Virus record (IMG/VR): IMGVR_UViG_3300044530_001486
Location: 1 to 23,342 of that record
Source of the DNA: a virus
Length of the DNA: 23,342 nt
Reading direction: 5' to 3' (one strand)
Notes under the pieces: generated by a model
What the model was told of the DNA's origin: nothing
Database searches by the model: none
The model's input: the letters and a program-made list of their open reading frames with translations, nothing else
Shown here: piece by piece, positions 7,249 to 11,370 of the stretch
Layout: each line of letters opens with the position of its first letter
Numbering within the stretch: the stretch's first letter is position 1
Position numbers and translations under genes: made by a program

Positions 7249-7806
7249 TCATCTATCTGAATTTGGTGGTCTTTCAACAAGAGGGCTATTGTCAACCGTG
7301 CCCGCTGGAGCCTCGATTGGAACCCACGCACGGGAGTATGTGTGTTCAGATATTTTTCTTGTCTTGATGATTGACGCCTCAAGCATAACCTCTAGCTCAT
7401 CTGTCTTCATGCATAAAAGGGTATCAAAATCATGGCGGTCATACTTCCCTGACTGCTTTAACTTCCGAACAATATTCGAAATCTTTTTTGCAACCAGAGT
7501 CCCACGACCCCGATTGAAGCGTAGGTGCATCATCATTGCTGTGAGCCCATCGCAATCATGCTCAATGACTGGAATCATGTCTCCGTGCGCATCGGCAATT
7601 CTGGAAACATTTAAAAATAGAAGGAGTCTTTCGCTGCCATCGATTACTTCTTTGGTCGAGGCACGAACGTGGATTGGTTCAATGAACCCAAACTCCATGA
7701 GTGAAGCGGACAGAACAAGCAGGTCCGGGCGAAGTATGTATGTTGCCTTCCATTCCGGAATCTTCAAGTCGCTGGCTTTGACGTAGTTAATATTCAATTG
7801 TTTCAT
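7249..7806 (-). CDS. ParB-like (IbrB-like) protein
   Basis: A 185-residue protein with a short N-terminal ParB/Srx-fold domain. After an ILRPDLLVLSASLMEFGFIEPIHVR helix-strand section (residues about 24-48) comes VIDGSERLLLF (residues 54-64), the ParB box that binds nucleotide. The C-terminal half is helical and not recognised. Its start overlaps the end of the PP-loop ATPase gene by 20 nt, with AGAGGA as Shine-Dalgarno, so the two are coupled. This pairing of a PAPS-reductase-like protein with a small ParB-like protein matches the IbrA/IbrB pair known from Escherichia coli. The biochemical activity of IbrB is not established, so no reaction is claimed. Confidence 0.75.
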   Translation of the reverse strand: MKQLNINYVKASDLKIPEWKATYILRPDLLVLSASLMEFGFIEPIHVRASTKEVIDGSERLLLFLNVSRIADAHGDMIPVIEHDCDGLTAMMMHLRFNRGRGTLVAKKISNIVRKLKQSGKYDRHDFDTLLCMKTDELEVMLEASIIKTRKISEHTYSRAWVPIEAPAGTVDNSPLVERPPNSDR

Positions 7807-9723: not shown

Positions 9724-10055
9724 ACCTGTGCTCGCACGTTTGCATTAAGTGTCCGCATCGCATCGATTGATGTTCGCAAAGACAACAGTGCTTCTCTTTT
9801 GGTTTTAACAAGAGCCTCTGCAATCTTGTATTCGTAATTGACGTCATCAAGTTTGTAGTCAGCCCAAGCCTCACGCTCTTTAATTGAGCCAGAACGAGCA
9901 AGATATTCCTTTGCCCAGTTCGACTTGTATCTCGCTTCTTTCTTTGCCGCCTCAACGGCGAGGACCTCAAATGCTTCAGTTTCTTTTTCTAACTCTCCAA
10001 GGAGTCGAAGCATTTCTTGTTCGATTTCGATTTGGCTAATAGGTGCGCTTCTCAT
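9720..10055 (-). CDS. Small coiled-coil phage protein, function unknown
   Basis: A 111-residue protein, starting at ATG 10055. A longer reading frame begins at 10124, but 10055 is preferred: it forms an ATGA overlap with the RuvC stop and has AAAGGA upstream. The sequence is almost entirely helical and charged, with heptad-like stretches (EMLRLLGELEKETEAFEVLAVEAAKKEARY; KIAEALVKTKREALLSLRTSIDAMRTLNANVRAQV), so a coiled coil is expected. Ends of the type LRT…R.L.A..RA occur in small phage proteins found near recombination genes in actinophages, as far as I recall. No catalytic residues are visible. Its place between the resolvase and the ParB-like gene suggests DNA metabolism. Confidence 0.75.
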   Translation of the reverse strand: MRSAPISQIEIEQEMLRLLGELEKETEAFEVLAVEAAKKEARYKSNWAKEYLARSGSIKEREAWADYKLDDVNYEYKIAEALVKTKREALLSLRTSIDAMRTLNANVRAQV

Positions 10056-10582
10056 GTTTTTCCTTTCGCTTGTAGTGCGCTCCAATCTACTTTGTCCAGA
10101 GCGGACATATTCGTTGCTGGCCAAGAAAATCTAGGTTTTCCTGTAAAGGCAAGAGCCATCTCTTCAAGAATCCATGCGTCACATTTGTCATCCGCCCCCG
10201 GGTTCCCCCATGTGATTCCGGTCTTGGCGGAAATAGCAGAGATAACTTCGTTTTTTGATGCATTACCTTTGCCGGTGGCAAACTTGGCCCTGCACGTTGG
10301 GGGTATCTCTACGAACGGCACGCCCAATTCAAACAGACAGAGCCGTACGACTCCACCAAGCTCGCCAATGGAGAAAGCCTGTCCGCTACGGGAAGCAAAG
10401 GAGTAACCCTCTACGATGACAACATCTATATCATTTTCCAAAACTATTTTTTTAATTGTTTCAGAAATTGTTTTAAGCCTCTGAACTCCCCGTTCACTAG
10501 TTGATATAACACCTGTATTTCCGTCGTGAGAATACCCAGTGGACGTCAGGGAAAGGTCAAGCCCAAGCAGATTGATATTCAC
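10052..10582 (-). CDS. RuvC-like Holliday junction resolvase
   Basis: A 176-residue protein with an RNase H fold. The first strand LLGLDLSLTSTGY carries catalytic D9; VVIVEGYSF carries E58; and NPGADDKCDAWILEEMA carries D132 and D135. These four acidic residues are the RuvC active site. It would cut branched DNA made during recombination or before packaging. The start is GTG at 10582, as an in-frame stop lies shortly upstream and no ATG is available; the Shine-Dalgarno is poor. A strong minus-strand terminator ends 27 bp upstream, so expression of this operon may depend on reading through it. It is the first gene of the operon down to 7249. Confidence 0.9.
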   Translation of the reverse strand: MNINLLGLDLSLTSTGYSHDGNTGVISTSERGVQRLKTISETIKKIVLENDIDVVIVEGYSFASRSGQAFSIGELGGVVRLCLFELGVPFVEIPPTCRAKFATGKGNASKNEVISAISAKTGITWGNPGADDKCDAWILEEMALAFTGKPRFSWPATNMSALDKVDWSALQAKGKT

Positions 10583-10599
10583 GGACAGATACTAATCCA

Positions 10600-10740
10600 T
10601 AAAAGCAAAAACCCGCCGAACACCTAGCCGGTTCAGCGGGTTTGTCGAGCGACACAGGTGGCGTGCAGTCGAGTCTTCGATTTGCCGTAGCTTTCGCCAC
10701 TAGACCTTTTGACCACCTGCCCTTCTTCCACTCGGAGGAG
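10600..10740 (-). ncRNA. Candidate structured RNA with intrinsic terminator (RNA-B)
   Basis: No credible gene is seen here. On the minus strand an 8-bp helix (10713-10720 with 10654-10661, CAGGTGG/CCACCTG plus a GU pair) encloses a GNRA-capped hairpin (10687-10700, GTGGC-GAAA-GCTAC) and a small hairpin (10669-10680). A strong terminator stem follows (10609-10643), then TTTTTGCTTTT. The GU pairs in three of the helices are possible only on the minus strand; the plus strand would give A-C clashes. This fixes the direction. It is either a small RNA or a leader that controls RuvC. It does not fit a tRNA: the would-be T arm does not pair. No known family was recognised. Confidence 0.5.
10601..10643 (-). 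terminator. Intrinsic terminator between RNA-B and RuvC gene
   Basis: Minus-strand stem of 13 pairs with one GU: AAACCCGCTGAAC with GTTCGGCGGGTTT, a 9-nt loop, then T-rich sequence TTTTTGCTTTT. It lies 27 bp before the GTG of the resolvase gene. Confidence 0.75.
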
Positions 10741-10765: not shown

Positions 10766-10825
10766 ACACTATTTATTAAAGCTAAATAGTAAAGCATTTA
10801 TTATTAAAAATTAAGTAGATAGTGT
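10766..10825. repeat. AT-rich nested inverted repeats
   Basis: ACTATTTA and TAAATAGT (10768-10775 and 10783-10790) form an 8-bp inverted repeat with 7-nt loop, and ACACTAT/ATAGTGT (10766-10772 and 10819-10825) a wider one. The segment is almost all A and T and separates the two candidate RNAs. It could be a regulator site, a promoter region for RNA-B or an unwinding element; nothing decides between these. Confidence 0.35.
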
Positions 10826-10831
10826 CGAACA

Positions 10832-10918
10832 TGCAAAAGCCGAGTGAGTCTCCCCACCCGACTTTCGCACCTATAACGGTCCTAAGGATTACAACAATAC
10901 ACGGGCGATAAATACTGA
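10832..10918 (-). ncRNA. Candidate small RNA with 17-nt antisense to 23S rRNA (RNA-A)
   Basis: On the minus strand a hairpin of 11 pairs (AAAGTCGGGTG at 10865-10855 with CACTCGGCTTT at 10846-10836, two GU pairs) ends in a short TTTT. Upstream of it the minus strand carries the exact complement of CTATAACGGTCCTAAGG (10871-10887). That 17-mer is the core of the I-CeuI recognition site, a highly conserved 23S rRNA segment around helix 69-71. The GU pairs are possible only on the minus strand. A weak promoter (AAATAA-N17-TACAAT) lies near 10925-10955. The rRNA-like part is not predicted to fold on itself, so it could be free to pair. Existence and target are inference. Confidence 0.4.
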
Positions 10919-10952
10919 AAGTGTTAATTGTAAACAAATTTTTTTATAGTTA

Positions 10953-11013: not shown

Positions 11014-11370
11014 ATGTCAACAGCATCACTCGCCCCAACAACCATCACAATGAACATTGCTGGTGGACTCTCAACATCCAGCATCGTTACAATGGCTATG
11101 CCGTTTGCTGGTTCTGTCACCGGCGCTTACGTAGCCGTAACCACAGCCCCAGTTGGTTCCGCTCTTACAGCAGACCTGAAGATTGGCTCTAACGTCGCAG
11201 CAGCGTTCTCGATTGCTGCCGCTGGAACTTCAGATGAAGGAACACTTTCGGCTCAAGCATCAAACCTTTACTTCACAAAAGGTGCTCTCGTTAGTCTTGA
11301 TGTGTCGGCCGTCGGTTCAAGCACTGCTGGCTCGAACATGACAGTTGCTTTCACTGTAGTTGAAGGCTAA
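11014..11370 (+). CDS. Small beta-rich virion protein candidate (decoration or fibre type)
   Basis: A 118-residue protein rich in Ala, Ser, Thr, Gly and Val with almost no charge. Alternating strands (TITMNIAGGL, SIVTMAMPFAGSVTGAYVAV, LTADLKIGSNVAAAFSIAA, ALVSLDVSAVGSSTAGSNMTVAFTVVEG) suggest a beta sandwich. Proteins with the pattern 'G.V.GAYv.v..AP.GS.LTaD' followed by 'vGSstaGs.lTV' are common in phage structural regions, probably as decoration or fibre proteins; this is from memory and not a firm family. ATG 11014 is chosen over 10921 because AGGAG lies 5 bases before it and the promoter lies between the two. The gene stands alone in reverse to its neighbours with its own promoter and terminator, so high independent expression is likely. 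Confidence 0.75.
   Translation: MSTASLAPTTITMNIAGGLSTSSIVTMAMPFAGSVTGAYVAVTTAPVGSALTADLKIGSNVAAAFSIAAAGTSDEGTLSAQASNLYFTKGALVSLDVSAVGSSTAGSNMTVAFTVVEG

Follow-up and report, generated by a model that had tools for sequence, protein, structure and literature searches.

A putative phage small RNA that carries a 17-nucleotide antisense sequence to helix 69 of 23S rRNA

Why would a phage keep, in the gap between two genes, 17 nucleotides that match 23S rRNA perfectly, and which of the two strands would be read? The locus lies in a 23,342-nucleotide stretch of viral DNA (IMG/VR record IMGVR_UViG_3300044530_001486), the whole of which we call the window. A preliminary description had reported the match in a non-coding stretch, and we indeed find it at 10871-10887, between the RuvC gene at 10052-10582 on the minus strand and an ORF at 11014 on the plus strand. 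The plus-strand 17-mer, CTATAACGGTCCTAAGG, is the sense sequence of 23S rRNA nucleotides 1914-1930 (identical in E. coli, whose numbering is used here as fixed by the pseudouridines 1911, 1915 and 1917), that is, the 3' half of the loop of helix 69 (H69), the 3' strand of H69 and the linker to H70/71. The target that 23S rRNA itself carries is CUAUAACGGUCCUAAGG, and the 17-mer is likewise present in 23S loci L092, L222-L224 and L276. The 17-mer occurs once in the window with 0 copies expected from shuffles, which, together with its presence in 117 IMG/VR stretches, places the match far beyond chance, as an earlier estimate of about 1 in 4,000 had indicated. The features of the locus are as follows:

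10922-10927, minus strand: conserved box TTAACA, which reads TTGACA in some relatives, located 22 nt upstream of the -10 element
10894-10899, minus strand: predicted -10 element TATTGT (TAnnnT), at -12 to -7 from the 17-mer
10871-10887, minus strand: 17-nt antisense stretch CCUUAGGACCGUUAUAG, complementary to 23S rRNA 1914-1930
10832-10869, minus strand: covarying 15-bp hairpin with a loop of 8 nt and an inner UUUU in its 3' arm, separated by one base from the 3' end of the antisense stretch
10806-10810, minus strand: run of five U downstream of the hairpin, a possible 3' end of the RNA

The hairpin next to the 17-mer settles the question of the strand. In line with the earlier remark that it pairs well only on the minus strand, its folding energy is -38.7 kcal/mol there (z -3.7) and -20.7 kcal/mol on the plus strand (z 0.0). 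Because structure is confined to the minus strand, the RNA, if there is one, reads CCUUAGGACCGUUAUAG, antisense to 23S 1914-1930. Across 31 distinct relatives, all 465 stem cells are paired (367 Watson-Crick and 98 G-U) and several stem pairs have changed on both sides; the G-U pairs would be A-C mismatches if read on the other strand. The median hairpin energy is -30.0 kcal/mol on the RNA strand compared to -18.8 kcal/mol on its complement, with the RNA strand lower in 54 of 55 cases. We reject a sense-strand rRNA mimic, since both the structure and the promoter lie on the opposite, antisense strand. The window scan returned neither an Rfam match nor a tRNA in the interval of the element, and in none of the families scanned did the element match a described RNA family above the gathering threshold (Rfam 15, 4227 models). 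The window, in which the gene strand is the antisense one, has no match to LSU rRNA (RF02541), and LSU rRNA was found in L092 alone among the loci scanned.

Sequences upstream of the antisense stretch point to a promoter of its own. Of 56 distinct upstream sequences, 43 have the TAnnnT box at -12 and 9 have it at -13; at neighboring registers its frequency is near 0. The start of the RNA is predicted at ~10886-10889, the first bases of the antisense stretch; with its start so fixed by the -10 box, the RNA would begin (NN)CCUUAGGACCGUUAUAG and continue into the 15-bp covarying hairpin. The element would therefore have the own promoter of a trans-acting antisense small RNA, as judged by consensus (register in 52/56), the basis on which we assigned both promoter and terminator. 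About 22 nt upstream of the -10 element, a TTRACA-CTTTCAGTATTT block is conserved in many relatives; its spacing is wrong for a sigma-70 -35 element, and it may be a site for a phage activator. At the other end, 41 of 63 distinct elements are followed by a terminator-like hairpin with a U-run on the antisense strand and 6 by one on the sense strand, against a background of 133/630 (21%). A hairpin or terminator 3' of the seed, as in trans-acting antisense small RNAs, is thus present, with the qualification that some members of the subfamily to which the window belongs lack a U-run directly after the hairpin. The class of L034 is built differently: a small GGCAGCGAAAGCU hairpin lies ~7 nt after a TATACT box and precedes the same antisense.

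Using the neighboring RuvC-like protein as bait, we collected 80 relatives with protein identities down to 62%. The element is kept in 73 of the 80, on the same strand and 78-314 nt upstream of ruvC, so that the conservation called for by the preliminary description is borne out. Among 37 distinct copies, position 1 of the antisense stretch varies (C, T or A), and positions 2-17 are invariant except for A8>G in 5 copies and A16>G in one, both of which retain the pairing to rRNA as G-U. The stem and flanks vary where the antisense stays constant. The element hence shows the conserved single-stranded seed and the pairing-preserving substitutions of a trans-acting antisense small RNA. No match was found in seven relatives (L165, L207, L210, L213, L214, L220 and the truncated L152), which indicates that the element is dispensable. 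Between the element and ruvC lies a second structured RNA, which we call RNA-B (10595-10730, minus strand; GGCAGGUGGUCAAAAGGUCUAGU..ACCCGC..GGCGGGUUUUU). RNA-B recurs in many relatives (such as L142, L159, L166 and L209), is also present in L165 and L207, both of which lack the antisense, and has no Rfam match.

The exact 17-mer recurs in 117 IMG/VR stretches, and in ~105 of them a strong hairpin stands directly 3' of the antisense. One of the 117 is a true 23S (L092), and three are organelle-like contigs with many tRNAs (L001, L005 and L024), which we set aside; L006, L287, L294 and L319, which show no clear structure, were left out of family membership. Most of the stretches belong to the window's group, and classes with other hairpins comprise L034/L013/L060, L066/L107 and L022/L048/L094. 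The chance background is ~0.5 matches per 17-mer in this collection, versus more than 100 observed, and the 15 alternatives with the two central bases altered gave 7 scattered matches in IMG/VR. A 17-mer variant fitted to the actinomycete CCAUCC was found nowhere in IMG/VR, an antisense counterpart to archaeal H69 gave 0 matches, and antisense 17-mers to the sarcin-ricin loop and the peptidyl transferase center occurred 0 times and once, respectively, in the phage collection. By these counts, antisense to rRNA is not general in phages; the predicted antisense to H69 is the one carried.

Allowing G-U-compatible changes at positions 5, 8 and 10 brought in further families, the number of which is approximate and drawn from the matches listed. 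Most of these, among the matches listed, have terminator-like hairpins of their own: L284/L289/L293/L310 share common flanks and a U-rich hairpin at the end, and the others are L286/L292/L302/L303/L313 with L291, L304/L306, and L296. Contiguous complementarity ranges from 17 to 30 nt across families (1914-1941 in L060, 1914-1936 in L066, 1911-1930 in L022 and 1905-1934 in L291, where 2 of the 30 contiguous pairs are G-U), and every one contains the core 1914-1930. The substitutions seen in the other families (A5>G, A8>G and C10>U) are neutral to pairing. In cultured Vibrio phages (PWH3a-P1, vB_VibM_10AMN and others), a gap that is free of annotation contains CCTTgGGACCGTTATAGTTAtGG, and TTAGGACtGTTATAGTTACG occurs in a faecal phage; all three changes in these sequences are G-U compatible, and the matches taken alone are non-significant by BLAST (E 0.6 and 2). 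In PWH3a-P1, a phage of Vibrio natriegens (HQ634156), the antisense lies near 80887-80909 and the predicted RNA would contain CCUUGGGACCGUUAUAGUUAUGG. Outside the core, similarity is confined to members of a family, plus a short upstream stretch common to L034 and L291. Lacking detectable similarity in their flanks, the phage groups, ~8 by our approximate count, are independent or very old. This pattern suggests that many unrelated phages carry a tiny RNA gene with near-perfect antisense to H69, which may have evolved repeatedly against the host ribosome.

Two variations on this arrangement stand out. In L282 (near 7746-7763, minus strand), L314 and L136, a second antisense piece, (U)CGCUACC, lies within ~100 nt of the H69 antisense, as though the two flanks of the site were separate targets. 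In Staphylococcus phage SpP (L139, 2501-2517), near the terminase genes, and in an IMG/VR contig (L283, 3691-3708), GACCGTTATAGTTACGG, which is antisense to almost all of H69, precedes a GGGTGTGCGGAACGCACCC-type hairpin.

Does the host of the window's phage carry the target? WhiB, a marker of Actinomycetota (PMC10202952), is encoded by all 7 of the long contigs that belong to the group of the window. The preliminary description had cautioned that actinobacteria differ at this site. This is correct for the five Actinomycetes, which read CCAUCC, leaving two central mismatches and a duplex of -20.5 kcal/mol compared to -30.4 kcal/mol for the host class matched by tRNA; it does not apply to that likely host class, where the site is canonical. 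Among 296 genomes of the phylum, reached via a CCAUCC genome among the distant relatives of another genome, the site variants are GGUCC, CCAUCC and CCGUCC. A tRNA with a CAU anticodon on a 160-kb contig of the group has its best matches in G378, G409, G248, G334 and G398 (91-93%, 105-113 bits), all of one class (103-113 bits), and reaches at most 87 bits against genomes seen with CCAUCC. In this tRNA-matched class, 11 of 11 readable genomes (G302, G452, G420, G199, G280, G324, G356, G334, G398, G184 and G367) have the canonical GGUCC, and it was read again in 23S loci L276 and L278. The many genomes of ~1 Mb there suggest that the class is Acidimicrobiia, including Actinomarinales. By WhiB the host is an actinobacterium, and the canonical site in 11/11 indicates that it very probably carries a perfect target, its class being assigned from WhiB and one tRNA, and the match to the host 23S on which the earlier proposal hinged is thus present in the class so indicated. 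In G248, of the same class, 23S locus L277 has GGUGC for GGUCC in the 3' strand of H69 and a changed 5' strand. None of the 296 genomes of the class matched by tRNA had the element itself, in host MAGs and prophages alike.

The earlier idea of a minus-strand RNA antisense to 23S rRNA is strengthened by its conservation in 73/80 relatives, the match in the host class, the structure on the minus strand only, the predicted promoter whose start falls on the antisense, the G-U-compatible changes and the recurrence in unrelated phages. We propose that the locus encodes a phage small RNA of ~60-80 nt, whose unstructured 5' end would serve as a built-in antisense probe for host 23S nucleotides 1914-1930 and whose stable hairpin would protect or terminate the 3' end. 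This RNA would pair with H69 and the adjacent linker when they are exposed, in free or assembling 50S subunits, and H69 (~-6 kcal/mol) would be opened and replaced by a 17-bp duplex (~-30 kcal/mol); the computed energies are -6.4 kcal/mol for H69 itself and -30.4 kcal/mol for the duplex with 23S of the host class. A 50S subunit bound in this way would probably be unable to join the 30S, so that host translation would be reduced or put on hold at some point during infection. Such a block of joining is likely because H69 forms the intersubunit bridge B2a and touches tRNA. Since the phage needs ribosomes, a general block would have to be incomplete or confined to a particular time. Speaking against the proposal, H69 is folded, pseudouridylated and buried in the 70S. 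That pairing with 23S rRNA is the function of the element we regard as highly probable, the consequence for translation as less so, and the complete proposal, in which the small RNA pairs with H69 in 50S subunits that are free or still assembling and so prevents subunit joining, as reasonably probable. Transcription, binding to the 50S and lowered translation are what we infer from the sequence, and we place the block of subunit joining first among host shut-off, ribosome parking, altered assembly and rRNA shielding. We also lean slightly toward the broader view that these are widespread, repeatedly evolved phage (perhaps also myxobacterial) RNAs, natural antisense inhibitors of the ribosome that invade H69 and share the core 1914-1930.

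The same antisense evidence would serve an RNA that pairs mainly with nascent pre-23S and disturbs or alters 50S assembly or rRNA modification, not subunit joining. H69 and the linker are accessible only before the 70S has formed or outside it, H69 has three pseudouridines, and the target includes U1915 and U1917, which are modified in most bacteria. No anatomical feature separates this reading from a block of subunit joining, but the core always reaches 1930, past the modified loop, and we consider it rather unlikely. The RNA could also shield the rRNA segment or anchor a phage factor on the large subunit, for instance against a defense ribonuclease near H69-H71. A single target in many unrelated phages is what would be expected if their hosts shared one ribosome-directed defense, and toxins that cut 23S rRNA nearby are known (MazF-mt3); however, we saw no such defense and the known MazF-mt3 cut site, at ~1939, falls outside the core 1914-1930, which makes this improbable.

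Two further readings do without pairing to rRNA. An ordinary phage terminator, its rRNA match due to chance or to descent from an rRNA fragment, would account for the terminator-like hairpin of many copies (with a U-run in 41/63, background 21%). Yet a terminator has no need of 17 invariant nucleotides in front of it, a promoter lies immediately upstream, and more than 100 matches stand against the ~0.5 expected by chance per 17-mer, so that we hold this very improbable. Scarcely credible, finally, is a double-stranded DNA site of rDNA sequence, either an integrase attachment site or a target of an I-CeuI-like homing endonuclease, even though the 17-mer at 10871-10887 is the core of the I-CeuI site. 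The fixed strand, the covarying hairpin with G-U pairs, the fixed distance to the -10 element and the G-U-compatible changes are meaningless for DNA, and register and length differ between families. Instead of the rDNA identity free of strand preference and RNA structure that marks such sites, we observed both.

How does the element compare with known systems? Phage takeover of translation is known to proceed via proteins and tRNAs. RNA-based anti-CRISPRs and CRISPR-like guide RNAs also place a hairpin beside a 17-nt unpaired stretch, but the 17 nt of the phage element are constant across phages and match rRNA, and beside the element we recognized neither a repeat array nor an effector gene in the window; among its ten proteins scanned (PHROGs alone), none is a CRISPR/OMEGA effector nuclease. 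The box C/D and H/ACA guides of archaea and eukaryotes are likewise small and base-pair with conserved stretches of rRNA. By contrast, the element, from a phage of bacteria, lacks boxes and guide architecture, consists of a single hairpin with a 5' tail, has no Rfam match, and has no partner enzyme that we could see. To our knowledge, no such RNA has been described as a natural product of bacteria or phages. Closer in build are the trans-acting phage small RNAs, such as 24B_1 and the phi-KZ non-coding RNAs (reviewed in PMC12197685), which are also short, stand-alone genes with a single-stranded pairing region and a hairpin; those described have mRNA targets or targets unknown, whereas the phage element would target rRNA. 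That a phage RNA pairing with 23S would be new, as had been supposed, agrees with the open-access literature, in which searches for the 17-mer or for phage RNAs on 23S returned titles on primers, cloning and rRNA work and none on phage RNAs, and with a 2025 review of phage small RNAs that does not mention rRNA (PMC12197685). A synthetic PNA against H69 of E. coli 23S inhibits growth of E. coli (Kulik et al. 2017, as cited in PMC7038079), which sets a precedent for the effect that we propose. As cited there, this PNA resembles the phage element in being antisense to H69 and differs in being man-made and delivered from outside; the phage element would be an encoded RNA with promoter, hairpin and the core 1914-1930. 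If our proposal is true, an encoded RNA that pairs with the most conserved intersubunit bridge would be a new mode of translation control, sequence-universal across most bacteria, and the phages would offer evolution-tested antisense sequences for H69, already a PNA target of chemists. As the target is one rRNA helix, matched mutations would provide a direct test.

Ten matches in cellular genomes lie apart from the usual 23S context. Of these, L128 and L129 are real 23S, five are likely chance matches (L126, L127, L130, L133 and L135), and three are loci of Myxococcota type. The latter, in Myxococcus (L131, 2492-2509, and L134, 2995-3012) and a Deltaproteobacteria MAG (L132, 4150-4167), are chromosomal antisense copies, (TC)GCUACCUUAGGACCGUUAUAG, with 21-23 nt of complementarity, which lie outside rRNA between possible hairpins and could possibly represent a cellular version of the antisense RNA. 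The copy in L131 is located between an ORF and a YceI-like gene.
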